Assembly: GCF_009913235.1 (NCBI RefSeq)
Contig: NZ_CP047897.1
Span: 930,001 to 994,000, forward strand
Direction of reading: 5' to 3'
DNA from: Nibribacter ruber
Lineage (GTDB): Bacteria; Bacteroidota; Bacteroidia; Cytophagales; Hymenobacteraceae
Length of the DNA stretch: 64,000 nt
Part shown: piece after piece, positions 3,030 through 58,248 of the stretch
How the letters are laid out: every line of letters starts with the position of its first letter
How positions within the stretch are numbered: the stretch's first letter is position 1
Notes under the pieces: generated by a model
The model's database searches: none
The model's input: only the letters and a program-made list of their open reading frames with translations
Told to the model about the DNA's origin: nothing
Translations under genes and position numbers: made by a program

Positions 3030-3146
3030 ATGCTAAGGTAGTATTATTTTTTTGAAAAGCATGGAATCCGGCCAATATTTTAAAGCTCCCTCCTTTTCTG
3101 GAAATCGGGTGGTAATTCCCCTTTTAACGCACCTGCAGCCCAGGTT

Positions 3147-3182
3147 GTTTTTGGCTTGTTTTCTAGGAAACAGACTAAAAAC
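3147..3182. repeat. Dispersed intergenic palindrome, degenerate copy 2
   Basis: GTTTTTGGCTTGTTTTC is followed by an imperfect inverse (GAAACAGACTAAAAAC). A lone half copy (GTTTTTGGCTATATTTG) follows just downstream. Both lie in the upstream region of ppx, between divergent greA and ppx. Confidence 0.6.
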
Positions 3183-3237
3183 GCTGCTTTATCCATAGGG
3201 CCGTTTTCTGTTTTTGGCTATATTTGTTTCTACCTCT

Positions 3238-4166: not shown

Positions 4167-4205
4167 CGTTTTTTGCTTATTTTCTGAGAAATAGCCCAAA
4201 AACGG
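4167..4205. repeat. Dispersed intergenic palindrome, degenerate copy 3
   Basis: CGTTTTTTGCTTATTTTC and its imperfect inverse begin two bases after the ppx stop. The right end (AAAAACGG) is at the same time the left arm of the ppx/ppk1 terminator, so the two hairpins overlap. Confidence 0.7.
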
Positions 4206-4244
4206 AAGAGCCCGATAGTTAAAACTTTCGGGCTCTTCCGTTTT
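4199..4244. terminator. Bidirectional terminator between ppx and ppk1
   Basis: A 17-bp stem (AAAACGGAAGAGCCCGA with its inverse at 4228-4244) has A-tracts on the left and T-tracts on the right, so it can end transcripts from both convergent genes. Confidence 0.9.
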
Positions 4245-6565: not shown

Positions 6566-8982
<2,417 letters not shown>

Positions 8983-9981: not shown

Positions 9982-10024
9982 AAAACGGAGAGGGCGCTAC
10001 CAATGGTAGCGCCCTCTCCGTTTT
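9982..10024 (+). terminator. Glucokinase gene terminator, joined to palindrome copy 5
   Basis: A 21-bp stem (AAAACGGAGAGGGCGCTACC with its inverse) has a minimal loop and ends in CGTTTTT. That T-run is also the first part of the next palindrome. Confidence 0.9.
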
Positions 10025-10056
10025 TGGGCTGTTTCCCAGAAAACAGCCCAAAAACG
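10019..10056. repeat. Dispersed intergenic palindrome, copy 5
   Basis: CGTTTTTGGGCTGTTTC, a short centre, then the inverse. It overlaps the T-tract of the glucokinase terminator by six bases, giving two hairpins in tandem. Confidence 0.92.
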
Positions 10057-15267: not shown

Positions 15268-15334
15268 GAAACCGCAGCCCTCGTTTTTAGCCTGTTTTCT
15301 AGGAAACAAGCCAAAAACGAGGGCTGCGGCGTTT
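15268..15334. repeat. Dispersed intergenic palindrome, copy 6 with long arms
   Basis: The core (15282-15319) is CGTTTTTAGCCTGTTTTC plus a near inverse. Outer arms CCGCAGCCCTCG and CGAGGGCTGCGG pair perfectly and are unique to this site. It follows the PorP/SprF stop by 12 bases. Confidence 0.92.
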
Positions 15335-15513: not shown

Positions 15514-15551
15514 CGTTTTTGGCTTGATTTCGAGAAAACAAGCTAAAAACG
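15514..15551. repeat. Dispersed intergenic palindrome, copy 7
   Basis: CGTTTTTGGCTTGATTTC, then GAGAAAACAAGCTAAAAACG. No locus-specific outer arms. Confidence 0.88.
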
Positions 15552-15661: not shown

Positions 15662-15699
15662 CGTTTTTGGCTTGTTTTACAGAAAATAGGCTAAAAACG
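15662..15699. repeat. Dispersed intergenic palindrome, copy 8
   Basis: CGTTTTTGGCTTGTTTT, short centre, AAAATAGGCTAAAAACG. It lies 42 bases beyond the end of the minus-strand esterase gene. Confidence 0.88.
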
Positions 15700-16919: not shown

Positions 16920-16933
16920 GGAAATCGATTTCC
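16920..16933. promoter_or_regulatory. Candidate LacI-type operator, perfect palindrome
   Basis: GGAAATCGATTTCC, a perfect 14-bp palindrome with central CG as in LacI/GalR operators. It lies between the divergent esterase and six-hairpin genes. It overlaps the expected -33 region of the plus-strand promoter (TATTTTTG at 16950-16957) and the likely start of the minus-strand transcript. Variants occur at susC and at the amylase gene ending at 47782. Confidence 0.75.
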
Positions 16934-16949: not shown

Positions 16950-16957
16950 TATTTTTG
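16950..16957 (+). promoter_or_regulatory. Bacteroidota-type -7 element for the maltodextrin gene series
   Basis: TATTTTTG matches the TAnnTTTG consensus exactly. About 20 bases upstream the operator contributes a TTTC at the -33 position. The ATG of the downstream gene is at 17021, leaving a leader of about 55 bases. Confidence 0.55.
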
Positions 16958-17020: not shown

Positions 17021-19732
17021 ATGTATAAAAAGGCAATCCCCGTATTACTCTTGGCCAGCTGTGCACTTTTTTCCTGCACCAGAAATGCCTCAGCGCCTAT
17101 GCCTTCTACTGCTACCTTATACACATCGCCCGCGTTTTCCATCTTTTCAGACAAGGTAATCCAGGGGAAGAACGAAGCCCATGCCTTGTCCCCTACGCAC
17201 CTTAGGTCTACCTACCAAAGCCCTGCCAACCAAACCTTTAACCGCTTAATTGAATTCAAGTTCAGCCTAAACGGCAAGGACAATGAACTACCCGTAGGCG
17301 TGAACCACCGGCTGGTGTTACAACCGGTGAACGGCAAAGTAGAGACGCCGGTGTTGGTGTTCGGACAGCAGGATGCCACCACGCCCACTGCCAAGGCCAA
17401 CGATTTCCTGGAACCCAATACCCAGGTCACGTTGAAGTTGGACATGCGCCCGGTGCTGGAAGCTTTTCAAAAACAAGGCTTCTACACGGCTTATAACGGC
17501 GACAAGCTCTATGCTCAGGATTTTAAAGGCGTGTTTGTGGCCGGCGGCTCAGAACCCTTGAGCTGGGACTTTGAGAACCTGCCCAGCCGCCAGCACCTGC
17601 AGCTCCAGGACCCTGACAAAGACGGCATTTATACGGTTACCCTCACCTTCAATGCCTACAACCCAGAAAACTTCACGGCCTCTGAGTGGCAACTCAAACA
17701 AGACATCAGCAAACTGCCCCAATTCAACTCCAGCCATGTGCTACTGGACGCGCTGTACAACCTGTCACTGGAAGAATCTTTGCTCAACATCAGGACGGAC
17801 CAGACCTTTATGGCCGGTGCCAAATGGGACGGCGTCTGGACCCGAGACATAAGCTACAGCATTGTGCTGGCCCTGGCCGCCATTCACCCTGAGATTTCTA
17901 AAAACAGCCTGCTCCGCAAGGTAAAAGACGGACGCATTATCCAAGACACGGGCACGGGTGGCTCCTGGCCTATCTCCTCTGATCGCATGACCTGGGCCCT
18001 GGCCGCCTGGGAAGTTTATCTGGTGACCGGTGACCAAAACTGGCTGCAACAAGCCTATGCCATCATCCAAAAGTCTTCCGAGGAGGATTTCTTAACCGTG
18101 CAGGATTCAAAGACCGGCCTCATGCGTGGTGAATCTTCTTTCCTGGACTGGCGCAAGCAAACGTACCCGCTCTGGATGCAACCCGTGGATATCTACGAGT
18201 CCCTTAACTTGGGCACCAACGCTGTGCATTACCAGATGTACCGCATCCTGGAACAGATGGCCCAGCGTTTGGGGCAGCCGAGCCAACAATATAGTCAACG
18301 GGCTTCCCAAATTAAACAGGCCATAAATGACAGACTTTGGTCTGAGGAACAAAAATACTACGGACAATATCTGTATGGCCGTCAAAACTTGTCGCTGTCA
18401 CCCAAAGCAGAAGGACTGGGCGAGGCCTTAACCTTGCTGTACGGCATTGCCGAAGGAGACCGCAGAGACCAAGTGCTCAACAACACGCCGCAGACTAACT
18501 TCGGGATTCCCAGCATCTTCCCGTATATCCCAGAAATTCCGCCGTACCATAACAACAGCATGTGGCCCTTTGTGCAGGCCTATTGGACCTGGGCTGCCGC
18601 CGAGGCCGGGCACACCGCCAAAGTTTCTGAAAGCATGAGCGCCCTCTACCGGGCGGCGGCTCTGTTTCTCACCAACAAAGAAAACCTGGTGGCCACCACC
18701 GGCGATTACAAAGGCACCGAAACCAATTCTGACCGCCAGCTCTGGAGCGTGGCCGGCAATTTGGCCATGGTCTATAGAGTATTCTTCGGGATGAAGTTTG
18801 AGCAGGACAAACTGGTATTTAAGCCGGTGGTGCCCGCCTCTTTTGCCGGTAAAAAGAACCTGACCAAGTTTCCATACAGAAAAGCATTCTTAAACATAGA
18901 GTTAGAAGGCCACGGCACCCAGCTGAAGGAGATTTACCTAGATGGCAAACGCGTAAATTCGGCTGAGATTCCGGCCAACTTAACTGGTGAGCATTCCCTT
19001 AAAATGGTATTGGCAGGAGACACCGGTACCACCACACCAGCTAAACTAGTGGAGCATAAATTCACGCCAGCTACGCCGCAACTTACCTACAAAAACGGCA
19101 AGGTGAGCTGGACTTCGGTCCCGCAAGCTGCCTCCTATAAAGTAGTGCACAACGGGAAAGTAGCAGCCACTATGGAAACTACTTCTTTCACAGTTCCCAC
19201 CAATTCTTTAGAACCCGCAGAATACCAAATAAAAGCGATTGGAGCTAACGGAACAGAATCCTTCTTAAGCGAACCCCTTAGCGTAAAAGGCACCAAAGCA
19301 GAGCGTTTGGTGGAAATGGAAGAAACCACTGCTTCAAAAGCCCACAACGCGGCCGGGTTTACCGGAAAAGGCTACATCGAAATAAAGAAAGGACAGCCTG
19401 CGCTATCATTCCAAGTAAAGGTAGCTGAGAACGGATTATATGCGTTGGATTTCAGATACGCCAACGGAAGCGGCCCCATTAACACAGACAACAAAGCGGC
19501 CATCAGAAGTTTAAGCGTGAACGGGAAGCGCATAGGCGCCATGGTGTTTCCGCAGCGCGGCTTTGACGAATGGTCTAACTGGGGCTACTCCAACGCACAG
19601 AACCTGTACCTACCCAAAGGCACGCATACCTTCACCTTGTCTCTGGAAGCCTCAGATGAGAACATGAACGGCGATATCAATGAGGCCTTGCTGGATCTTT
19701 TGCGACTTACCTGGCTACGAGCGAAAGAATAA
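17021..19732 (+). CDS. Six-hairpin glycosidase-like lipoprotein (glycogen-debranching-like) with C-terminal carbohydrate-binding domain
   Basis: 903 residues. A lipoprotein signal (LLLASCALFSC, Cys14 or Cys19) has no acidic residues after the Cys, so periplasmic anchoring is likelier than surface export. A beta-rich N-terminal half (to about 215) precedes an (alpha/alpha)6 barrel at about 235-610, with GAKWDGVWTRDISYSIVLALAAIHPE, GTGGSWPISSDRMTWALAAWE and SSFLDWRKQTYP. These resemble debranching and GH63-like enzymes; catalytic acids cannot be named safely. A fibronectin-like linker (about 690-765) and a CBM35/6-like domain (about 770-900) end it. It is first in the co-directional maltodextrin series and has the best operator of the window before it. 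Confidence 0.75.
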   Translation: MYKKAIPVLLLASCALFSCTRNASAPMPSTATLYTSPAFSIFSDKVIQGKNEAHALSPTHLRSTYQSPANQTFNRLIEFKFSLNGKDNELPVGVNHRLVLQPVNGKVETPVLVFGQQDATTPTAKANDFLEPNTQVTLKLDMRPVLEAFQKQGFYTAYNGDKLYAQDFKGVFVAGGSEPLSWDFENLPSRQHLQLQDPDKDGIYTVTLTFNAYNPENFTASEWQLKQDISKLPQFNSSHVLLDALYNLSLEESLLNIRTDQTFMAGAKWDGVWTRDISYSIVLALAAIHPEISKNSLLRKVKDGRIIQDTGTGGSWPISSDRMTWALAAWEVYLVTGDQNWLQQAYAIIQKSSEEDFLTVQDSKTGLMRGESSFLDWRKQTYPLWMQPVDIYESLNLGTNAVHYQMYRILEQMAQRLGQPSQQYSQRASQIKQAINDRLWSEEQKYYGQYLYGRQNLSLSPKAEGLGEALTLLYGIAEGDRRDQVLNNTPQTNFGIPSIFPYIPEIPPYHNNSMWPFVQAYWTWAAAEAGHTAKVSESMSALYRAAALFLTNKENLVATTGDYKGTETNSDRQLWSVAGNLAMVYRVFFGMKFEQDKLVFKPVVPASFAGKKNLTKFPYRKAFLNIELEGHGTQLKEIYLDGKRVNSAEIPANLTGEHSLKMVLAGDTGTTTPAKLVEHKFTPATPQLTYKNGKVSWTSVPQAASYKVVHNGKVAATMETTSFTVPTNSLEPAEYQIKAIGANGTESFLSEPLSVKGTKAERLVEMEETTASKAHNAAGFTGKGYIEIKKGQPALSFQVKVAENGLYALDFRYANGSGPINTDNKAAIRSLSVNGKRIGAMVFPQRGFDEWSNWGYSNAQNLYLPKGTHTFTLSLEASDENMNGDINEALLDLLRLTWLRAKE

Positions 19733-19736
19733 GCTT

Positions 19737-19774
19737 CGTTTTTGGGATATTTCTCAGGAAACAGGCCAAAAACG
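19737..19774. repeat. Dispersed intergenic palindrome, copy 9
   Basis: CGTTTTTGGGATATTTCTC, then GGAAACAGGCCAAAAACG; arms are imperfect at three positions. It sits in the 79-bp gap between two co-directional genes, five bases after a stop codon. Confidence 0.85.
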
Positions 19775-19811
19775 GATTTGTAAAATTTGAAAGACACTGA
19801 TTGAAATAAAT

Positions 19812-21707
19812 ATGCGACAATTCCACTTCGGCTTGAGGAGCAAACTAAGCATTTTGCTTCTTCTTGTGCTGGTCACCTTCACCACGCAGGCCCAGAAAAA
19901 AGACGGCATTACCCGCATGGACCCTACCTTCTGGTGGGTGGGCATGAAGAATCCCAACCTGCAATTGTTGGTATACGGCCCCAACGCGGGCACGTATGAG
20001 TATTCCTTGAGCCATCCGGGTGTGACGCTGGTGAAGACCAACAAAGTAGAAAATCCCAACTACGCCTTCCTTGATTTGACCATCTCCCCTACTGCCAAGG
20101 CGGGTACGTTCACGCTTACCGGAAAAAAAGGCGGCAAAACCATCAAGCGCACCTATGAGTTGAAGGCGCGTACCGCAGAACCGAAGGCGCAAGGCCTAAA
20201 CGGCTCTGATTTTATCTACCTGGTCCTGCCCGACCGCTTCTCCAACGGTGACCCCAAGAACGACAAGTTCAAGGATATGGCCGACTCTAATGCGGACCGC
20301 AACAATCCTTTCTATAGACACGGCGGTGACATTAAGGGCATCCAGAATCACTTAGACTATTTCCAGGAATTTGGCGTGACGGCGCTTTGGCTGAACCCGG
20401 TCATAGAGAACAATCAGCCCTTAACAGATGAAGGCGGCACCAAACGCAGTGCCTACCATGGCTACGCCTTCACGGACCACTACAATGTAGACCGCCGTTT
20501 GGGTGGCAATGAAGCCTACAAAAAACTGGTGCTAGCCGCGCACGCCAGAGGCATGAAGATTGTGCAGGATGCCGTGTACAACCACGTGGGCATCAACCAC
20601 TGGTTTATCAAAGACATGCCCAGCAAAGACTGGGTGCACCAGTTCCCTAGCTATACCAACACCTCGCACAAATTCCAGCCCATCATTGACCCTAACGGCT
20701 CTAAAGCCGACTGGGACATCATGCTCAATGGCTGGTTCACGCCTTTCATGCCAGACCTGAACCACGAAAACAAACTGGTAGAGAATTATCTGATTCAGCA
20801 CGCGCTTTGGACGGTAGAGCATTTTGAGATTGATGCCTGGCGCATTGACACCTACATGTACAATGAGGACCAGTTCATGAACCGTTGCAATCAGGCCTTG
20901 CTAGATGAATATCCTAACATCCACATCTTCGGGGAGAGCTGGGTGAACAACGTAGTGGCTCAGGCTCGCTTTGTCCGTAACAACATCAACTTCCCCTTCA
21001 AGAGCAACCAGCCAAGCACCCTGGACTTTGTTTTGTTCAACGCTTTTAATGACGCCCTAAACCAGAACTTCGGTTGGGACGAAGGAGTGAGCAAAGTACA
21101 CCAGGTCCTGGCCCAAGATGCCGTGTATGCAGCCCCCATGAACCTGGTGACTTTCCTGGACAACCATGACATGAACCGCTATTTCTCTGTCATTGGCGAA
21201 GACCTGAACAAATACAAAATGGGCGTGACCTGGCTGTTAACCACACGCGGTATTCCTTCTTTGTATTATGGCACCGAGATTCTGATGAAGAACTTCAAAG
21301 ACCCAACGGACGCTGAGGTGCGCAAGGATTTCCCGGGCGGTTTTACAGGCGACAAGGAAAATAAATTCACTGCATCAGGCAGAAACGAGCGCGAGAATGA
21401 TGCGTTCAACTTTGTCAAGACCTTGGCCAACTACCGCAAGAATACCCCGGCCCTGCACTCGGGTAAACTCATGCAGTTTGTACCGCAGGACGGCATCTAC
21501 GTGTATTTCAGATACAACCAAGACAAGACAGTGATGGTGGCCACCAATACCACAGACAAAGAAGCAGACCTAAAAACTGAACGCTTTGCCGTGCGCATGA
21601 CTGGATTCACCAAAGCGCAGAACATCCTCACCAAGCAACCGGTAAGCAGTTTAAGCACTATTAAGATTCCGGCTAAAACGGCTTTGGTGCTGGAGTTACA
21701 GAAATAA
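19812..21707 (+). CDS. GH13 neopullulanase / cyclomaltodextrinase-like amylase (SusA-like)
   Basis: 631 residues. A signal peptide ends near FTTQAQ-KK, so it is probably periplasmic. An N-terminal cyclomaltodextrinase-type beta domain (PTFWWVGMKNPNLQLLVYG, residues about 35-118) precedes the GH13 barrel. Conserved regions: DAVYNH (253-258), AWRIDTYMY with the nucleophile D346, IFGESW with the acid E375, and FLDNHD ending at D453. Such enzymes open cyclodextrins and cut maltodextrins or pullulan. It sits second in the plus-strand series, between the six-hairpin protein and beta-phosphoglucomutase, which fits periplasmic trimming of imported oligosaccharides. Confidence 0.92.
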   Translation: MRQFHFGLRSKLSILLLLVLVTFTTQAQKKDGITRMDPTFWWVGMKNPNLQLLVYGPNAGTYEYSLSHPGVTLVKTNKVENPNYAFLDLTISPTAKAGTFTLTGKKGGKTIKRTYELKARTAEPKAQGLNGSDFIYLVLPDRFSNGDPKNDKFKDMADSNADRNNPFYRHGGDIKGIQNHLDYFQEFGVTALWLNPVIENNQPLTDEGGTKRSAYHGYAFTDHYNVDRRLGGNEAYKKLVLAAHARGMKIVQDAVYNHVGINHWFIKDMPSKDWVHQFPSYTNTSHKFQPIIDPNGSKADWDIMLNGWFTPFMPDLNHENKLVENYLIQHALWTVEHFEIDAWRIDTYMYNEDQFMNRCNQALLDEYPNIHIFGESWVNNVVAQARFVRNNINFPFKSNQPSTLDFVLFNAFNDALNQNFGWDEGVSKVHQVLAQDAVYAAPMNLVTFLDNHDMNRYFSVIGEDLNKYKMGVTWLLTTRGIPSLYYGTEILMKNFKDPTDAEVRKDFPGGFTGDKENKFTASGRNERENDAFNFVKTLANYRKNTPALHSGKLMQFVPQDGIYVYFRYNQDKTVMVATNTTDKEADLKTERFAVRMTGFTKAQNILTKQPVSSLSTIKIPAKTALVLELQK

Positions 21708-21710
21708 CCA

Positions 21711-21746
21711 GTTTTTGACCTGATTCCCGGAAAACAGGCCAAAAAC
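21711..21746. repeat. Dispersed intergenic palindrome, copy 10
   Basis: GTTTTTGACCTGATTCCC, then GGAAAACAGGCCAAAAAC; the outermost CG pair is lost. It begins three bases after a stop in a 93-bp gap. Confidence 0.82.
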
Positions 21747-21800
21747 AAAAGCAAATTTATACCTCCGTATGGAGGTCGAACATTATAAGAGCAGAAGTAG

Positions 21801-22460
21801 ATGAGCCAGATTACAGCGTGCCTTTTTGACTTAGACGGCGTTTTAGTAGACACCGCCGTGTACCACTACAAAGCCTGGCGCGACCTTGCCAACAGCCTGG
21901 GCATTGACTTCACCGAGGAAGACAATGAGCGCCTGAAAGGCGTGAGCCGCGTTAGGTCCCTGGAGATTATTCTGGAGATTGGCGGTCAGACCTTGGACCA
22001 AGAAAAGATGCTGGCCCTTTGCGAGCAGAAAAACACCGAGTACCTCAAAGACGTGGCCCAAATGACGCCCGCAGAGATACTGCCCGGTGTGGTAGATTTC
22101 CTGAAGACATTGAAGCAGGAAGGAATGCTGATTGCCTTGGGCTCTGCCAGTAAGAATGCCCAATTGATTCTGGAGCGCACCGGCTTACTCGGCTACTTTG
22201 ACGCCATCATTGACGGCCGACACGTCATCAACGGCAAGCCAGACCCAGAAGTGTTCCTGAAAGGCGCCGAAGCCCTTGGCGTTCAACCAGAAAACTGCGT
22301 GGTCTTTGAAGATGCGGTGGCTGGCGTAGAAGCCGCTAAAAACGCTGGCATGCGCTGTGTGGGGGTTGGTGAACCAGAGACCTTAGCAATGGCAGATATC
22401 GTGGTAAAAGACATGACGGAGATGTCAGTGGCTAGACTACGTGAACTAGGACAGAAATAA
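21801..22460 (+). CDS. pgmB: Beta-phosphoglucomutase
   Basis: 219 residues, a HAD-superfamily enzyme without a signal peptide. The nucleophile and acid/base Asp are in LFDLDGVLVDTAVYHYKAWR (D10, D12), the cap follows, and the later motifs are ALGSASKNA and NGKPDPEVFLKGA ... VVFEDAVAGVEAAK. The HYKAW signature after the nucleophile loop is typical of beta-PGM as opposed to other HAD phosphatases. It converts beta-glucose-1-phosphate to glucose-6-phosphate. The next gene is GH65 maltose phosphorylase, which makes exactly this substrate, so the pairing supports both calls. Confidence 0.94.
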   Translation: MSQITACLFDLDGVLVDTAVYHYKAWRDLANSLGIDFTEEDNERLKGVSRVRSLEIILEIGGQTLDQEKMLALCEQKNTEYLKDVAQMTPAEILPGVVDFLKTLKQEGMLIALGSASKNAQLILERTGLLGYFDAIIDGRHVINGKPDPEVFLKGAEALGVQPENCVVFEDAVAGVEAAKNAGMRCVGVGEPETLAMADIVVKDMTEMSVARLRELGQK

Positions 22461-22465
22461 GAAGC

Positions 22466-22503
22466 CGTTTTTGGCCTGATTATCAGAAAACAAGCCAAAA
22501 ACG
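22466..22503. repeat. Dispersed intergenic palindrome, copy 11
   Basis: CGTTTTTGGCCTGATTATC, then AGAAAACAAGCCAAAAACG, in the 109-bp gap between beta-PGM and maltose phosphorylase genes. Short CTTGATAC repeats follow it near 22533-22560. Confidence 0.87.
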
Positions 22504-22569
22504 AATACTTGAAACATATTAATAACTGAGTCTTGATACGTGTGTCTTGATTCTTGATACTAAAAAAGC

Positions 22570-24888
22570 ATGAAGCAATACCTTACCATAGATGAATGGT
22601 CCATCATTGAAGAAGGCTTCCGTCCAGAGTACAACCGTATTTCTGAGAGCGTCTTCAGTTTGGGCAACGGGCGCATGGGCCAGCGCGCCAACTTTGAGGA
22701 AACCTACACCGGCGAGACCCTGCAAGGCAATTACGTGGCAGGCGTGTACTACCCAGACAAAACGCGCGTGGGCTGGTGGAAGAACGGCTACCCAGAATAC
22801 TTCGCCAAGGTCTTGAACGCCGCCAACTGGATTGGTATTGATGTGCAACTAGACGGCGAAACCCTGGACCTGCACCACTGTCAGGTATTGGAGTTCAGAC
22901 GCGAGCTGAACATGCGCGAAGGTTGGTTAGAACGTACCTTTACGGCGCAGTTGCCCAGTGGCAAACAAGTGCGCGTGGTAGCCAAGCGATTCACCAGCAT
23001 TGTGGACGATGAGGTAGGCGCCATCAAGTATTGCCTTACGCCGCTTAACTTCTCGGGCACCATCACCTTCATGCCGTTTGTAGACGTGGACGTGATGAAC
23101 GCTGACTCCAACTATGATGAGAAGTTTTGGAACGAGGTCCAGAAGGAAGCCAAAGGCCTGGAGGGCTACGTGACCGCCGAAACCAAGAAAACCGCTTTTC
23201 ATGTGTGCACCGGCCAAAAGGTAAAAGTAACGGTAGACGGCGAGGAAGTATCTGTAGACGCATCAAACACGGAACGGGCTAAATATGTGGCTTCAACGTT
23301 CACAGTTTCTGCTAACCAGGACCAGGACGTGGTGGTATACAAGATTGCCGCCAACCTTTCTTCAGAAAATCACCCCAAGGAGCAATTGCTGGCCAAGACC
23401 AAAGAAGTAATTGCCCAAGCCTACGCCAAAGGTTTCAATCAATTGTTGTTAGAGCAAATAGATGCCTGGGCCGCCAAGTGGGAAGAAAGCGATATCATCA
23501 TTGAAGGAGATGCCTCTGCCCAGCAAGGCATCCGGTTTAACATCTTCCAGCTCAACCAAACCTACACCGGCGAAGATGAGCGCCTCAACATTGGCCCAAA
23601 AGGCTTTACCGGCGAGAAATACGGCGGGTCTACGTACTGGGACACAGAGGCCTACTGCCTGCCCTTCTACCTGGCCACCGCCGACCAACAAGTAGCGCGC
23701 AACCTCTTGGTATACCGTTACAAGCACTTGCAGAAAGCCATTGAAAACGCAGAGAAGCTGGGCTTTACCAATGGTGCGGCTTTGTACCCGATGGTGACCA
23801 TCAACGGCGAAGAGTGCCACAATGAATGGGAAATCACCTTCGAGGAGATTCACCGCAACGGCGCCATTGCGCACGCCATTTATGACTACATCCGGTACAC
23901 CGGTGATGACGCGTATTTAGCAGAGTATGGGGTGGAAGTGTTGGTAGGCATCTCAAGGTTCTGGGCACAGCGCGTGAACTGGTCGGCGGCCAAAAACCAG
24001 TACGTGATGCTGGGCGTGACCGGCCCGAACGAATACGAAAACAACGTTAACAACAACTGGTACACCTCTACCATTGCCACCTGGACGCTGGAATACACGC
24101 TCAAAGCTTTGAAGCATGTGCAGGAAACCAATCCAGCCCGCTACCAGGAATTGGTGAGTGTATTAAACCTGGACGAAGCCAAGGAAACCGCGCAATGGCA
24201 GCATGTCATTGACCACATGTTCTACGCCGAAGATAAAGACTTGGGCATCTTCCTGCAGCAGGACGGCTTCCTGGACAAAGAGCAGACCTTGGTGAAGGAC
24301 CTTCCGGCAGAAGACCGCCCCTTGAACCAGAAATGGTCCTGGGACAGAATCCTGCGCTCGGTGTTCATCAAGCAGGCCGACGTATTGCAAGGCATTTACT
24401 TGTTTGAGGACCGCTATGACCTGGAGACCATCCGGAGAAACTATGACTTCTATGAGCCGCGCACGGTACATGAATCGTCGTTGAGCCCATGTGTGCACTC
24501 TATACTGGCCGCCAAACTGGGTGATGAAGAGCGTGCCTATGAGTTCTACCTGCGCACCGCCCGTCTGGATCTGGACGATTACAACAACGACACCGAGGAT
24601 GGTTGCCATACCACCAGTATGGCCGGTACCTGGATGAGTGTGGTGCAGGGTTTTGGCGGAATGCGCGTGCGTGACAACCAGTTGCACTTCAATCCTTTCA
24701 TTCCGGCGGGCTGGTCCAGCTACTCGTTCAAGATTAGGTTTAGAGGTCATTTGTTAAAGGTGAAAGTGACCAATGAAGGCGTAGAGATTGAGAACCAGCA
24801 CATCCAGCCGCTGGCGCTTACCATCTTTGACCAACCACAGACCATTGAGGCCAATGGTAAAGTACAGCTGGCCCACAAAGTAGCGTAA
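22570..24888 (+). CDS. Glycoside hydrolase family 65 maltose phosphorylase
   Basis: 772 residues, cytoplasmic (no signal peptide). It splits maltose with phosphate into glucose and beta-glucose-1-phosphate. Family marks: the N-terminal beta-sandwich (SVFSLGNGRMGQRANFEE), WDTEAYCLPF near 357, ECHNEWEITFEEIHRNGAI near 416, the predicted catalytic acid E488 in GVTGPNEYENN, and HESSLSP in the phosphate-site region. Trehalose and kojibiose phosphorylases share the fold; the cluster context (beta-PGM next door, amylases around) favours maltose. Free glucose would go to the ROK glucokinase at 8983. Confidence 0.93.
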   Translation: MKQYLTIDEWSIIEEGFRPEYNRISESVFSLGNGRMGQRANFEETYTGETLQGNYVAGVYYPDKTRVGWWKNGYPEYFAKVLNAANWIGIDVQLDGETLDLHHCQVLEFRRELNMREGWLERTFTAQLPSGKQVRVVAKRFTSIVDDEVGAIKYCLTPLNFSGTITFMPFVDVDVMNADSNYDEKFWNEVQKEAKGLEGYVTAETKKTAFHVCTGQKVKVTVDGEEVSVDASNTERAKYVASTFTVSANQDQDVVVYKIAANLSSENHPKEQLLAKTKEVIAQAYAKGFNQLLLEQIDAWAAKWEESDIIIEGDASAQQGIRFNIFQLNQTYTGEDERLNIGPKGFTGEKYGGSTYWDTEAYCLPFYLATADQQVARNLLVYRYKHLQKAIENAEKLGFTNGAALYPMVTINGEECHNEWEITFEEIHRNGAIAHAIYDYIRYTGDDAYLAEYGVEVLVGISRFWAQRVNWSAAKNQYVMLGVTGPNEYENNVNNNWYTSTIATWTLEYTLKALKHVQETNPARYQELVSVLNLDEAKETAQWQHVIDHMFYAEDKDLGIFLQQDGFLDKEQTLVKDLPAEDRPLNQKWSWDRILRSVFIKQADVLQGIYLFEDRYDLETIRRNYDFYEPRTVHESSLSPCVHSILAAKLGDEERAYEFYLRTARLDLDDYNNDTEDGCHTTSMAGTWMSVVQGFGGMRVRDNQLHFNPFIPAGWSSYSFKIRFRGHLLKVKVTNEGVEIENQHIQPLALTIFDQPQTIEANGKVQLAHKVA

Positions 24889-24896
24889 TAAATAAA

Positions 24897-24942
24897 CTTC
24901 CGTTTTTGGCCTATTTTCTGGAAAACAGGCCAAAAACGGAAG
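24897..24942. repeat. Dispersed intergenic palindrome, copy 12
   Basis: CTTCCGTTTTTGGCCTATTTTC, then the inverse with one mismatch. It starts eight bases after the GH65 stop and is followed at once by a 127-bp inverted repeat. Confidence 0.92.
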
Positions 24943-24957: not shown

Positions 24958-25084
24958 CTGGCGCGAGTCTCCAGACTCGTGACACAAGATGAGGTGAGTC
25001 TTCAGACTCAATAGAAACATACATAGAAACTGGAGTCTGGAGACTCCAACCATCCAATGTCACGAGTCTAGAGACTCGCGCCAG
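24958..25084. repeat. MITE/REP-like 127-bp element with 27-bp terminal inverted repeats
   Basis: The ends are CTGGCGCGAGTCTCCAGACT... and its inverse (24958-24984 against 25058-25084), matching at 26 of 27 positions. Inside are more GAGTCT/AGACTC hairpins. It has no coding capacity and lies between two co-directional genes of the maltodextrin series, 45 bases before the next ATG. It looks like a non-autonomous mobile or REP-type element; no transposase is in the window. Confidence 0.8.
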
Positions 25085-25128: not shown

Positions 25129-27021
25129 ATGAAACCTACGCAGCGTTCAATCCTGTCATTGGCTTTGCTGGCTTCGCTAGCGGTTGGTTGTAAATCGTCG
25201 GTGCCTAGCACTTCTACTATACCAGATAAAGAAACCACAGAAACGACTATGACTTCTTCTGAAGGTGCGACAGAAACACCCAATCCCTTCACCACAAATG
25301 AAGAGGTAACCGACCAGAAACTGGTGATTTACCAGATGATGACGCGTCTGTTTGGCAACAAGAAAACGGTGAACAAAACCTATGGCACCCTACAAGAAAA
25401 TGGCGTGGGCAAGTTCAACGACATCACAGACAAGGCGCTTCAGGAAATTAAGAAACTGGGCGCCACACACGTCTGGTACACCGGTGTTTTGGAGCACGCA
25501 CTCATGACAGACTATACCAAATTCGGTATACCCTTGGATGACGCTGATGTGATTAAAGGCCGTGCCGGTTCGCCTTATGCGATTAAGGATTACTATGACG
25601 TGAACCCAGACCTGGCGGTGGACGTGCGCAAACGCATGTCGGAGTTTGAAGCGCTGGTAAAACGCACGCACGGCAATAGCTTGAAGGTGATTATTGACTT
25701 CGTGCCCAACCACGTGGCTCGTAAATATCAGTCCGACGCCAAGCCGGCAGGTGTAGAGGATTTCGGGGCGAAGGATGATGTGACGGTTGGTTTTAAACCC
25801 AGCAACAACTTTTACTATTTGCCGGGCCAACCTTTACAAGTTCCATCTGGGTACAATGCCTTGAGCGCTTCGTTCAAAGGACCGCAGGAGGACGGCAAGT
25901 TCGCAGAGAATCCGGCAAAGGCATCTGGCAATGATGTGTTCAGCGCCACGCCTAGCGTAGATGACTGGTTTGAGACCGTGAAACTCAACTACGGCGTAGA
26001 TTATCAGAACAACCGCACCAAGCACTTCTCTCCTACCCCAGACACCTGGATTAAGATGCGCGACATTCTGTTGTATTGGGCCGGCAAGAAGGTGGACGGT
26101 TTTAGATGCGACATGGCCGAGATGGTGCCTGTGGAGTTTTGGGCCTGGGTGATACCGCAGGTGAAAGCCAAGTACCCAGACATCAAGTTCATCGCTGAGA
26201 TATACAACCCCAATGAGTACCACAACTACATTAAGACCGGCGGCTTCGACTATCTCTATGACAAAGTGGGCTTATATGACGGCGTGCGCCGTTTGATGGA
26301 GAACAAAGGAAAAGGCAATACCGCTGACATTACCAAAGTGTGGCAAGAGGAAAGCCGAGGCATCTCCAGCCACATGCTGCGCTTCTTAGAAAACCATGAT
26401 GAGCAACGCATTTCCTCTCCAGACTTCGCCGGTACGCCTTGGGCGGGCGTACCAGCCATGACGGTGAGTGCTACCTTGGGCAGCGGTCCGGTGTTGATTT
26501 ACTTTGGACAGGAAGTGGGTGAGCCGGGCAAAGGGCACGAGGGTTTTCAGGGCGAAGACGGCCGCACCACCATCTTTGACTATTGGGGCGTACCTACGCA
26601 CCAGGCCTGGATGAATGGCGGTAAATTTGACGGAGGCAAACTCACTGAAGATCAGCAGCGCCTACGCGAATTCTACGCTAAACTTTTGAATGTAAGCACC
26701 AGCCGCGAGGCCCTTCGGAAAGGCAAGATGTACGGCTTGACGGTGCAGGAAGGAATTGCGCCGGCGGGAACCTATGCCTACATTCGGCACACTGCCAATG
26801 AACGTATCTTGGTGGTGGTCAATTTCAACCGCACCGCCGCAGATTTCAGTTTGGCATTGCCAGCTCAAGCATTGTCTGCGGTAGGATTAGATAACAAAGG
26901 CACGCTTATCCTGCAAGATTTGCTTACCAGCATGCCGCCGTTGTTTTTGGAGCCTTCGGTAAAAACTAAAATTACGCTGGCACCTATGAGTGCGCATATA
27001 TTTCTGTTGCAGAAAAAATAG
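25129..27021 (+). CDS. GH13 alpha-amylase family lipoprotein
   Basis: 630 residues from the ATG at 25129; a longer frame from 25093 would add 12 non-signal residues, so I reject it. The lipobox LAVGC gives Cys21, and the residues after it (KSSVPST) lack the acidic surface-export signature, suggesting the periplasm. GH13 regions: DFVPNH (190-195), VDGFRCD with nucleophile D328, FIAEIYN with E357, FLENHDEQR with D424. Region I reads DFVPNH, as in several alpha-amylases and alpha-glucosidases. It lies between maltose phosphorylase and an MFS sugar carrier, so it probably makes small maltodextrins for uptake. Confidence 0.9.
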   Translation: MKPTQRSILSLALLASLAVGCKSSVPSTSTIPDKETTETTMTSSEGATETPNPFTTNEEVTDQKLVIYQMMTRLFGNKKTVNKTYGTLQENGVGKFNDITDKALQEIKKLGATHVWYTGVLEHALMTDYTKFGIPLDDADVIKGRAGSPYAIKDYYDVNPDLAVDVRKRMSEFEALVKRTHGNSLKVIIDFVPNHVARKYQSDAKPAGVEDFGAKDDVTVGFKPSNNFYYLPGQPLQVPSGYNALSASFKGPQEDGKFAENPAKASGNDVFSATPSVDDWFETVKLNYGVDYQNNRTKHFSPTPDTWIKMRDILLYWAGKKVDGFRCDMAEMVPVEFWAWVIPQVKAKYPDIKFIAEIYNPNEYHNYIKTGGFDYLYDKVGLYDGVRRLMENKGKGNTADITKVWQEESRGISSHMLRFLENHDEQRISSPDFAGTPWAGVPAMTVSATLGSGPVLIYFGQEVGEPGKGHEGFQGEDGRTTIFDYWGVPTHQAWMNGGKFDGGKLTEDQQRLREFYAKLLNVSTSREALRKGKMYGLTVQEGIAPAGTYAYIRHTANERILVVVNFNRTAADFSLALPAQALSAVGLDNKGTLILQDLLTSMPPLFLEPSVKTKITLAPMSAHIFLLQKK

Positions 27022-27104
27022 AAAGAGGCCCCGTTTCTCGGCTATTTTTCCCAAATTAAGACAAAACTGACCTAACCCTTTACCTAACAAACAAACCCCT
27101 GCCC

Positions 27105-28453: not shown

Positions 28454-28496
28454 AAAACGAAGAAGCCCCAGTCCAACGCTGGGGCTTCTTCGTTTT
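28454..28496 (+). terminator. Terminator of the maltodextrin gene series, joined to palindrome copy 13
   Basis: An 18-bp stem (AAAACGAAGAAGCCCCAG with its inverse) has loop TCCAACG and ends in CGTTTTT, which is also the start of the next palindrome. Confidence 0.92.
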
Positions 28497-28528
28497 TGGG
28501 CTGTTTTCTGGAAAATAGGCTAAAAACG
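28491..28528. repeat. Dispersed intergenic palindrome, copy 13
   Basis: CGTTTTTGGGCTGTTTTC, then GGAAAATAGGCTAAAAACG. It overlaps the preceding terminator T-tract in the same way as copy 5. Confidence 0.9.
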
Positions 28529-41071: not shown

Positions 41072-41085
41072 GGCAATCGATTTCC
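41072..41085. promoter_or_regulatory. Candidate LacI-type operator upstream of susC
   Basis: GGCAATCGATTTCC matches the perfect palindrome at 16920 in 13 of 14 positions. A second AAATCG half site overlaps on its right (minus strand TTAAATCGCTAAGG). A TTTG 10 bases downstream on the minus strand is a possible -33 element. Confidence 0.7.
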
Positions 41086-42337: not shown

Positions 42338-42661
42338 GAATAGAGTTTTACTCTCAGCCTTCGCCCCTCTTTCGTTTTTGGCCTGTTTCTCAGGAAACAG
42401 GCCAAAAACGAAAGAGGGCTTTTTATTGTATCTCGCTTATTATGTTTACCAATCCCTGATGGCATAGAAGGAAATGCGATGGCTCCTTTGCTTATATCCC
42501 TTCCTGCTTCTCTACAATTCACTGTAGGAAACCCATGCATTTAAAGCAAAAAGTGTTTTTTCAGCACTTTTGCATCTGTTTGCCGCTTCTTCCTTTTCTC
42601 CTCTATTATCTTATTCCTATATTACCCATCCAAACTCTGACTAAACAAGACAAACCGCTTT
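42338..42661. other. Gap between the LacI-type regulator and the FucP-like transporter
   Basis: 324 bases. It holds palindrome copy 14, which is followed by CTTTTT and can act as the regulator gene terminator. The transporter therefore probably has its own promoter in 42420-42660. No gene or RNA was recognised. Confidence 0.6.
42365..42418. repeat. Dispersed intergenic palindrome, copy 14, acting as a terminator
   Basis: Outer arms CCCTCTTT/AAAGAGGG surround the core CGTTTTTGGCCTGTTTC and its perfect inverse with a 3-base loop (TCA), then CTTTTT. With 25 or more paired bases and a T-run it is the most terminator-like copy. Confidence 0.95.
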
Positions 42662-44700: not shown

Positions 44701-44738
44701 CGTTTTTGGCTTGTTTTCCAGTAAATACACCAAAAACG
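44701..44738. repeat. Dispersed intergenic palindrome, copy 15
   Basis: CGTTTTTGGCTTGTTTTCC, then GTAAATACACCAAAAACG; the right arm is partly decayed. Confidence 0.85.
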
Positions 44739-44851: not shown

Positions 44852-44889
44852 CGTTTTTGGCGTATTTCTTGGAAAAGAGGCCAAAAACG
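44852..44889. repeat. Dispersed intergenic palindrome, copy 16
   Basis: CGTTTTTGGCGTATTTCTT, then GGAAAAGAGGCCAAAAACG, with several arm mismatches. It lies 74 bases beyond the end of the minus-strand amylase gene. Confidence 0.85.
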
Positions 44890-47881: not shown

Positions 47882-47929
47882 GATATCTGTTTTTGGCATA
47901 TTTTGAGAAAAACAGGCCAAAAACGATAT
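47882..47929. repeat. Dispersed intergenic palindrome, copy 17
   Basis: GATATC then TGTTTTTGGCATATTTTG, with the inverse ACAGGCCAAAAACGATAT. It lies between two divergent genes (amylase and branching enzyme), with partial outer arms. Confidence 0.82.
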
Positions 47930-54084: not shown

Positions 54085-54154
54085 AAACTAAGAAGCCCGT
54101 CGTTTTTGGCCTGTTTTCTGGAAAACAGGCCAAAAACGACGGGCTTCTTAGTTT
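54085..54154. repeat. Dispersed intergenic palindrome, copy 18 (70-bp, 34-bp perfect arms)
   Basis: Two 34-base arms pair perfectly around TG. The inner 18 bases are the family core (CGTTTTTGGCCTGTTTTC); the outer 16 (AAACTAAGAAGCCCGT) are unique. It lies between the convergent GH31 and GT3 genes and must act as a double-sided terminator. Longest stem in the window. Confidence 0.96.
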
Positions 54155-55966: not shown

Positions 55967-56007
55967 ATGGATTTTGGCCTATTTTACCGAAATTAGAGCA
56001 AAAATGG
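55967..56007. repeat. Decayed palindrome relic upstream of the GT3 gene
   Basis: ATTTTGGCCTATTTTACCG and an imperfect inverse ending in GCAAAAATGG. The pairing is poor, so this is a relic at best. Confidence 0.35.
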
Positions 56008-56657: not shown

Positions 56658-56699
56658 GTCGTTTTTGAGCTGTTTTCCAGAAAACAGCTCAAAAACGAC
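56658..56699. repeat. Dispersed intergenic palindrome, copy 19
   Basis: GTCGTTTTTGAGCTGTTTTC then AGAAAACAGCTCAAAAACGAC. The core has GAGCTG/CAGCTC in place of GGCCTG/CAGGCC, so both arms changed together. It starts three bases after the thioesterase stop. Confidence 0.94.
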
Positions 56700-56806: not shown

Positions 56807-57895
56807 ATGACTGACGCGAATACCTATTTATTTCTGCATCAACTGGCCCAGAAAAGCAACAAGCTCATTTTTTGCTTTGACGCTGCCACGGGCTCTTTCC
56901 TCTACTTAAACAGTAGCTTTGAAACAACCTGGAGCCTGACCAGCCAACAGATTCAGGCGCGCCCAGGCCAGTTGCTGGATTCAGTGCACCCCGAGGATTT
57001 GGATTTTCTGGAACGAGAATTTGAAAGGCTGCTCAGCGGGGAAACGATAGACGAAGTAGATTTCAGAATATTGCTGCCCAATCAAATTGAAAAGTGCCTG
57101 CATCTTTCAGCGGTTTTGTTGCCGGGAGACGGGCAACAGCAACTGGTAGCCGGCATTGCCGAAGATGTGACCAGCCAAAGAGACAACATCAGGAATCTGC
57201 AGAAGTTTGCCGCCAAGAAGAACTCCATTCTGGAGATTCTGGCCCATGACCTTGCCGGTCCGCTGGCCAGCATCCAGTCCCTGTCCGGCTCCCTTTCAGA
57301 GTCGTTCAAGGGCAAGGCCAAAGAAGAAGACGCGCACATGGCCCAGCTAATCTACAAGACCAGCGTGAGAAGCATTCAGATGATCCGCGACTTTGTGAAG
57401 CAGGAGTTTCTGGAATCTTCCAACGCCGGCATGATGAAGGTGCGCCTGAACTTAGCAGAGAAAATTCAAGAGGTGGTAGAGCAGTACCAGGAAGGTGAGC
57501 GGAACATCAAAAAGTACTTCAGCTATTCCTGTGCCTCGCCGCAGGTGTATATCTCGCTGGACCAAAACAAGTTCATGCAAGTCATCAACAACCTTATCTC
57601 TAATTCCATCAAGTTCAGCAAAGACGATGCCCATATTGACATCACCTTGTCAGAACAAGAAGACCGGGTTTTGGTAGAAGTAAAGGATGATGGCATTGGC
57701 ATTCCGGAAGAGTACCACGAGGAGCTGTTTGACAAATTCACCAGGGCCCGCCGCAACGGCCTCAAAGGCGAACCGTCCGTGGGTCTGGGCATGTCCCTCA
57801 TTAAAACCATTGTAGAGTGGCACGGCGGTCGTATCTGGTTCACCAGCCAGGAAAACGCAGGAACTACTTTCTTCATTGAGCTACCCAAAGAATAA
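56807..57895 (+). CDS. PAS domain sensor histidine kinase, soluble
   Basis: 362 residues from the ATG at 56807; a GTG at 56750 would add 19 residues without PAS similarity. A PAS domain (about 15-125, FDAATGSFLYLNSSFETTWSL) has a PAC-like end. The dimerisation/phosphoacceptor helix carries H147 in ILEILAHDLAGPLAS, and the HATPase domain has NNLISNSIKFS (N box), DDGIGIPEEY (G1), FDKFTRARR (F) and GLGMSLIKTIVEWHGG (G2). It has no membrane segment, so it senses an internal signal. No response regulator gene lies next to it, so it is an orphan in this window. Confidence 0.9.
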   Translation: MTDANTYLFLHQLAQKSNKLIFCFDAATGSFLYLNSSFETTWSLTSQQIQARPGQLLDSVHPEDLDFLEREFERLLSGETIDEVDFRILLPNQIEKCLHLSAVLLPGDGQQQLVAGIAEDVTSQRDNIRNLQKFAAKKNSILEILAHDLAGPLASIQSLSGSLSESFKGKAKEEDAHMAQLIYKTSVRSIQMIRDFVKQEFLESSNAGMMKVRLNLAEKIQEVVEQYQEGERNIKKYFSYSCASPQVYISLDQNKFMQVINNLISNSIKFSKDDAHIDITLSEQEDRVLVEVKDDGIGIPEEYHEELFDKFTRARRNGLKGEPSVGLGMSLIKTIVEWHGGRIWFTSQENAGTTFFIELPKE

Positions 57896-57915
57896 ACCGC
57901 CTGATTGGCTTTTGC

Positions 57916-58248
57916 TTATTTTTTGAGAACCTGCAGGAATCCTTTGTCATACACTCTCTTCTGGGTGTATGAGTCTTTTTCATACCAGACATCCAACACA
58001 AAAGAAGGCGTATGGTAGGTGGTGGCAAACTCTTCTTCGCCGTTAATCAGTTTGGTGTTGGTGATCATTTCATACCCCTTCTCCAAGGCATTTTCATAGG
58101 CTAGTTCTTCATCTTCTGTGGCTAGCAGACAGGCTTCATACGCGGCATGGTATTGCTCTGTGATGGCCTCATACAGCCGCTGCAACTGGCTGGTCTCAAA
58201 CTCCATAAAGCCTTCCTCGTCTTTGGTCCACCAGCCTGTTAGATGCAT
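57916..58248 (-). CDS. Small protein of unknown function
   Basis: 110 residues, acidic and rich in Glu and Tyr, without signal peptide or membrane segment. The first half is predicted helical (MEFETSQLQRLYEAITEQYH, AYENALEKGYEM), the second half looks like beta strands (FATTYHTPSFVLDVWYEKDSY, QKRVYDKGFLQVL). I recognise no family. It is convergent with the histidine kinase, 20 bp away. Codon use and the sharp frame boundaries suggest a real gene. A decayed palindrome half (TTGGCTTTTGCTTATTTTTTG) lies in the gap. Confidence 0.7.
   Translation of the reverse strand: MHLTGWWTKDEEGFMEFETSQLQRLYEAITEQYHAAYEACLLATEDEELAYENALEKGYEMITNTKLINGEEEFATTYHTPSFVLDVWYEKDSYTQKRVYDKGFLQVLKK

Follow-up and report, generated by a model that had tools for sequence, protein, structure and literature searches.

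Dyad-symmetric DNA sites at gene ends in Rufibacter as candidate protein recognition sites

The maltodextrin genes and their palindromes

The window, as we call the whole 64,000-nucleotide stretch of DNA that was analyzed, carries a maltodextrin gene series whose members, with names backed by Pfam, are a six-hairpin glycosidase, a GH13 enzyme with cyclomaltodextrinase domains, a HAD hydrolase (beta-PGM-like), a GH65 enzyme, a second GH13 enzyme (GH13b) and an MFS transporter. A preliminary description of this DNA had noted a single palindrome in each of the gaps behind the first four genes, shortly 3' of the stop codon, able to fold and with genes of the same strand on both sides, and in these respects it was borne out. 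The four genes end, stop codon included, at 19732, 21707, 22460 and 24888, and the 38-bp cores of the palindromes (Table 1) begin 4, 2, 5 and 12 nt beyond them, close to the 3-9 bases that had been given; the fourth distance becomes 8 nt if the extended stem is counted. The gap lengths of 79, 93 and 109 bp were confirmed, and that of 240 bp is right with the ATG at 25129 as start codon, a TTG start giving 204 bp.

The predicted RNA folds of the four copies, in order, have energies of -14.4, -11.3, -14.6 and -27.6 kcal/mol and z scores of -4.6, -2.7, -4.8 and -7.5. The 36-base pattern is matched 1,180 times, at no more than 3 mismatches, in the window's own genome (4.35 Mb), and the reversed pattern not once; given this recurrence and the fold z scores, the four palindromes are not a product of chance. 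Judged by its letters, only the copy behind the GH65 gene, the extended stem of which is followed by CTTTTT, looks like a terminator among the four.

These gaps were also compared by eye in other species. Relatives of the palindrome are seen in most rows, imperfect and differing in their dialect letters; for the GH13-PGM gap, a decayed version is all that most species have, and two have another repeat instead. The PGM-GH65 gap is enlarged in other Rufibacter loci (L187, L189 and others) by further families of inverted repeats, namely GTCCCCCTTTGAAGGGGG pairs and GCGGAAGTTACTTCCG pairs. The GH13b-MFS gap, which in the window holds a decayed relative, has better palindromes in several other Rufibacter species. 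Within the window, 24960-25083 also contains two inverted pairs of GAGTCT..AGACTC hairpins, which are REPIN-like.

Between the first maltodextrin gene and a divergent esterase gene lies a LacI-type palindrome, GGAAATCGATTTCC, at 16920-16933; similar palindromes occur in other Rufibacter loci, and the window has two that are weaker, at 41072 and 47838. We scanned six gaps of the cluster for the Bacteroidetes -7-like promoter motif, using what we take to be its consensus, and the sole exact match lies at 16950, upstream of the first gene and near the LacI-type palindrome. The copies may thus be intercistronic, as the earlier reading had it; the scan accepted exact matches only, and promoters with a less exact motif may be present. 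The notion that the palindromes are a device of a maltodextrin operon is not supported, since the family is found chromosome-wide and is not specific to these genes. Nothing sets the four copies apart from the other dyad-symmetric DNA sites that the genus has at its gene ends.

Number, placement and conservation of the family

The unit is a 36-bp dyad-symmetric sequence, (YC)GTTTTTGGNYTGTTTTNNNNAAAACARNCCAAAAAC(GR), or 38 bp with C..G included. A repeat search returned 20 copies in the window, all of which align without gaps (Table 1), and a loose 12-base half-arm pattern marks 10 further places outside them, a number with no chance estimate attached. The window has no match in Rfam at gathering thresholds. 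At 57895-57930 a decayed copy overlaps the neighboring gene, in a convergent gap that measures 20 bp here and 129 bp, with a copy, in the closest relative (G007).

Table 1. Copies of the palindrome in the window (38-bp cores unless stated) and one decayed relative
Position	Feature	Associated structure	Basis
1944-1981	copy	within 30-bp perfect stem (1932-1993)	
3146-3183	copy		
4167-4204	copy	adjoins hairpin (4199-4244)	
8689-8726	copy		
10019-10056	copy	adjoins hairpin (9982-10024)	
15282-15319	copy	within 26-bp stem, 2 mismatches (15272-15329)	
15514-15551	copy		
15662-15699	copy		
19737-19774	copy after six-hairpin glycosidase gene (gap 1)		repeat search, alignment, fold
21710-21747	copy after GH13 cyclomaltodextrinase-like gene (gap 2)		repeat search, alignment, fold
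22466-22503	copy after HAD/beta-PGM-like gene (gap 3)		repeat search, alignment, fold
24897-24942 (core 24901-24938)	copy after GH65 gene (gap 4)	extended stem and T-tract, terminator-like	
27032-27069	decayed relative in GH13b-MFS gap (27022-27104)	does not fold	
28491-28528	copy after MFS transporter gene	adjoins hairpin 28454-28496, which uses the element's own T-tract	
42373-42410	copy	within 25-bp perfect stem (42365-42418)	
44701-44738	copy		
44852-44889	copy		
47888-47925	copy, divergent gap		
54101-54138	copy	within 34-bp perfect stem (54085-54154)	
55969-56006	weak copy		
56660-56697	copy		

In the 730 kb of the window's genome that were read directly we found 289 copies at no more than 7 mismatches, which by density corresponds to about 1,723 genome-wide; at the same tolerance the reversed pattern was absent from the first 464-kb sample. 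A pattern with 37-base spacing occurs at 8 places only, 36 bases being the usual spacing. With a dialect-tolerant pattern at no more than 2 mismatches, all 16 Rufibacter genomes have the family (31-1,936 matches), as against 0-2 matches in each of 134 other genomes of the same taxonomic family, and a stricter pattern had no match in 22 genomes of the order. The closest relative holds 795-854 copies. Protein identity to the nearest named loci is 85% for R. hautae and 83% for R. sediminis, followed by 69% for Solitalea, and on this basis the window's genome was assigned to Rufibacter. In eight loci from other genera, of 15-22 kb each, no recurrent palindrome was seen by eye. The 36-base consensus had no match in phage records. 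A single viral contig has an exact dialect-tolerant match: in this 39-kb predicted viral contig (L257), at 1242-1310, one palindrome stands directly behind a terminator-like hairpin, so copy gains do happen. A literature search of titles and abstract openings found no publication that describes these palindromes, or any palindromes of Rufibacter.

Placement was analyzed with genes from a purpose-written caller, not a standard annotator. Among gaps of 40-600 bp, those between convergent genes have a copy in 54 of 68 cases, tandem gaps in 133 of 246 and divergent gaps in 24 of 83; among those of 80-300 bp the counts are 35 of 40, 93 of 159 and 11 of 51 (convergent versus divergent, p = 2e-10). 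Tandem gaps of 80 bp or longer contain 155 copies, of which 113 are in the stop-side half, and none of 59 tandem gaps below 40 bp has a copy, because the element hardly fits there. Only 13 of the 289 copies lie inside called genes. The genomic distribution is therefore REP-like, extragenic and biased to 3' ends, in keeping with the earlier comparison with REP elements.

The scarcity of copies inside genes bears on the idea that the palindromes resemble uptake signals, maintained because DNA that carries them is preferentially taken up and recombined (molecular drive) and tolerated only at gene ends, an idea we consider very improbable. The known signals are single asymmetric units and not obligate 36-bp palindromes, and copies inside genes are as few as just stated. 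Even spacing along the chromosome had at first been suggestive and was rejected: a test on 36 bins of 20 kb gave a variance-to-mean ratio of 0.39 (null 0.99, sd 0.20; reached in 0 of 1000 re-dealings), and this under-dispersion was not reproduced in a pre-planned independent stretch (0.63 versus 0.82, sd 0.23; 207 of 1000 re-dealings), in the closest relative (1.19, null 0.80) or in a more distant one, G006 (1.10, null 1.14). What speaks for uptake signals is the genome-wide number, the species dialects, the phased T/A tracts and the coupling to terminators, USS pairs forming terminators in Haemophilus (PMC5217627).

Orthologous gaps were compared with the closest relative through 215 reciprocal best hits (median protein identity 86.5%) and with the more distant G006 through 98 (median identity 70%). 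Against the closest relative, 66 of 136 gaps have a copy in both genomes, 65 in neither and 5 in one only; against G006, 18 of 43 are shared, 9 discordant and 16 empty. In 59 one-to-one pairs with the closest relative identity is about 90% at the outer eight positions of each arm, about 70% at those further in, 87% in the inner T/A tracts and 57% at the center, while the two core-adjacent bases are 72-73% identical and the flanks beyond them 45-58%; the core values are somewhat inflated, since the search pattern itself specified core positions. Identity is hardly higher between orthologous copies (0.81) than between non-orthologous ones (0.77), indicating that most traces of common descent are gone from the copies and that the motif was kept. 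The species dialects all retain GTTT...T..TTT and its mirror image; judged by the species consensuses, those of G013 and G005 look the most distinct. G006 differs in dialect from the window's genome: in 15 one-to-one pairs the sixth base agrees in 13% and the base that mirrors it in 40%, and eight T/A positions of the core are identical in all.

Given this stability of position, it is rather improbable that the copies are old non-autonomous mobile repeats of the MITE or REP type, spread by a RAYT or other transposase, often into terminators, and now immobile. The genus-restricted explosion in number would agree with such an origin, as would the copy on the predicted viral contig, right after its terminator-like hairpin. 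The window's genome moreover has three RAYT-like genes (Y1_Tnp, PF01797), one flanked on both sides by copies no more than about 120 bp away, another with a copy 206 bp downstream and the third with none. However, the copy-rich closest relative has no PF01797 match at E<=0.001, and we rejected RAYT as a current driver of the copies on this ground; presence and absence are almost frozen between the two genomes; and immobile relics would not keep a core at 90% identity while their flanks saturate. The repeat clustered in front of one RAYT-like gene is, moreover, the GAGTCT..AGACTC hairpin and not the palindrome: four such hairpins stand at 1186-1302 of locus L003, before the gene at 1402-1953, and none beside the other two RAYT-like genes. 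These four are among 7 strict matches to that hairpin in 730 kb.

Terminators, RNA hairpins and DNA symmetry

Terminators were called by purpose-written rules, for which the control in the gap comparison, a plain letter shuffle, gave 0 of 398 gaps. Tandem gaps with a copy had a terminator in 43 of 133 cases, versus 19 of 113 without a copy, and convergent gaps in 42 of 54 versus 9 of 14. In the 43 tandem gaps with both, the terminator is upstream of the copy in 23, overlapping in 16 and downstream in 4, so that many copies lie beyond the end of the mRNA. Of 445 copies, 39 are within a terminator stem. Ninety hairpins point at a copy, and 39 of these end no more than 3 nt from the core, in which case the U-tract of the hairpin is the element's own CGTTTTT; at 616 random gap positions there was no comparable peak of abutting hairpins. 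On the other hand, 260 of the 445 copies have neither a terminator-like hairpin within 80 nt nor a flank stem of at least 4 bp. The site is thus often part of a terminator, but over half of the copies have none.

The flank stems themselves are found in both species in 11 of the 59 orthologous pairs, in one species in 11 and in neither in 37, and those present in both mostly consist of different letters in the rows shown. Since the stems recur with changed letters, a hairpin is probably of importance at between a fifth and a quarter of the sites. That the whole family might be intrinsic, perhaps bidirectional, terminators with a stem that happens to have the family sequence is nevertheless unlikely: the flank stems shared by 11 of 59 pairs, the copies within stems and the shared T-tracts speak for it, but a GC-rich stem with a U-tract is present in a minority of copies, the core ends in AAAAAC rather than in a U-tract, its pairing is hardly kept, and the fixed inner TGTTTT/AAAACA would be left unexplained.

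The position frequencies are mirror-symmetric between the arms, as would be the case for the site of a dimeric DNA-binding protein. The preliminary description had regarded the palindromes as RNA hairpins, in which case pairing between the arms ought to be a conserved property, and the core shows little sign of this. At the eight variable positions, copies of the window's genome have 1518 Watson-Crick pairs of a possible 2312, versus 1503 (sd 14) after column shuffling, an excess of only 1.1 sd that 80 of 500 shuffles reach; with G-U pairs included the figures are 1746 versus 1727 (sd 11), or 1.7 sd, reached by 23 of 500. An RNA hairpin would favor G-U over A-C mispairs in the transcribed orientation. 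In tandem gaps, to which this comparison was confined since direction is defined only there, the 235 transcription-oriented copies of the window's genome contain 190 G-U versus 180 A-C mispairs, with 79 versus 69 in the closest relative and 73 versus 70 in G006, and the difference was significant in none of nine classes. G-U and A-C being about equal, the preference that selection for an RNA hairpin would produce is not seen.

Some pairing beyond expectation does occur. The excess in the arms is positive, and mostly small, in 13 of the 14 genomes with enough copies (z from -0.3 to 4.9), and in the window's genome perfectly paired cores number 21 versus 4.0 expected. At 11 of these 21 the flanks are also paired, by at least 4 further pairs, where 1.1 were expected; the same is true of 24 of 69 cores with one or two mispairs (2.9 expected) and of 3 of 79 poorly paired cores (1.8 expected).

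In the window's genome the arms are nearly independent, and together with the lack of a G-U excess this suggests that the core is kept as symmetric DNA rather than as an RNA hairpin. The information content of the site is 52.5 bits over 40 positions, where roughly 11 bits would suffice to specify 1,700 places, and the excess would fit several bound subunits.

The explanation offered earlier, REP-like RNA hairpins that protect the upstream mRNA from 3' exonucleases or set the ratios between genes, is quite unlikely in light of these data. It accords with the foldability of all four gap copies and with the extragenic, 3'-biased distribution of the family. It does not accord with G-U being no more frequent than A-C, with arms that covary little, with a sequence fixed far beyond the needs of pairing, with copies in divergent gaps, or with the many that lie past the mRNA end. 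REP-like tuning of the maltodextrin mRNA is therefore unlikely to be what conserves the sites.

A proposed recognition site and its closest known counterparts

The reading that we tentatively favor, and to which we would give close to an even chance, is that the genome-wide palindromes are recognition sites of a putative dimeric or tetrameric protein at the boundaries of transcription units, a minority also serving terminators. Each half of the palindrome has two GTTTT sub-sites 11 bp apart, that is, one helical turn, and each copy could be bound by a putative sequence-specific DNA-binding protein as a dimer or a pair of dimers. Once bound, the protein would be a roadblock to RNA polymerase from both directions, or an insulator, and perhaps a nucleoid anchor as well. 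In a minority of copies the terminal CGTTTTT would be lent as U-tract to an abutting hairpin, and in another minority the copy would form the top of a longer terminator stem.

Several observations count against protein sites, namely the positive pairing excess in 13 of 14 genomes, the surplus of perfectly paired cores, the recurrence of flank stems at orthologous copies, the copies in 24 of 83 divergent gaps, the greater frequency of terminators in copy-bearing gaps, and the 9 of 43 gaps discordant with G006. As a source of the binding protein we considered an expansion of HU/IHF proteins specific to the genus and found none: PF00216 has a single match in 13 of the 16 Rufibacter genomes and two matches in the remaining 3, numbers similar to those of 23 further genomes, so that the search does not discriminate.

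A bolder version of the proposal, which we regard as less likely than not, is that some 1,000-2,000 long palindromic protein sites punctuate the transcription units of Rufibacter at their 3' ends, as a bacterial counterpart of roadblock termination, and that the protein arose with the genus, shifts in its specificity between species having converted sites by the hundred, without moving them, to a new dialect.

What had been a curiosity of four copies thereby becomes a system that spans the genus and is numerous enough for statistics. The usual interpretation of dispersed palindromes is as RNA hairpins or relics of mobile elements; here the near-independence of the arms, the lack of a G-U preference and the almost frozen orthologous positions point to DNA recognition instead. 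If this is true, a protein that reads about 1,700 gene-end sites would represent a novel type of factor for transcription boundaries or the nucleoid, and the dialects would let the joint change of a protein and more than 1,000 sites be studied.

The family can be set beside several known systems. Like the REP (PU) sequences and BIMEs of enterobacteria, including those between malE and malF, it comprises hundreds to thousands of extragenic palindromes at the 3' ends of tandem and convergent genes. Binding of IHF, gyrase or Pol I is known for some BIMEs. Unlike REP and BIME, the palindromes here are strictly 36 bp with a fixed dyad and almost independent arms, are kept at orthologous gaps, and show no general association with RAYT genes, of which none was found in the closest relative and only one of the three in the window's genome is flanked on both sides. 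MITEs differ by their variable presence and empty sites, which here would be limited to the 5 of 136 and 9 of 43 discordant gaps. With intrinsic bidirectional terminators the family shares its position and, in a subset of copies, a stem or T-tract; it departs from them in the 260 of 445 copies without recognizable hairpin or flank stem and in a core that conserves sequence, not pairing.

The inverted pairs of USS and DUS in Pasteurellaceae and Neisseriaceae are similar in having more than 1,000 copies, species dialects and an association with terminators. USS and DUS are common inside genes, whereas the sites described here are whole palindromes and nearly always intergenic.

Spaced pairs of palindromic motifs near gene 3' ends have been described in B. 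japonicum, GAATCCAT(N)23ATGGATTC, and in D. alkenivorans, CCTAC(N)19TAGGT (PMC5217627). Like the present sites they are intergenic, close to 3' ends and partly between convergent genes, but they number 52 and 57 copies versus about 1,700 here, and the text compared describes neither dialects nor orthologous conservation for them (PMC5217627), both of which are found here. Finally, the nucleoid protein CdbA of Myxococcus has hundreds of sequence-specific sites across the chromosome (PMC7156744). The likeness lies in the many chromosome-wide sites and in DNA contacts one helical turn apart; the CdbA motif is a direct repeat that is also present within genes (PMC7156744), as opposed to the one long palindrome found in Rufibacter at gene 3' ends.
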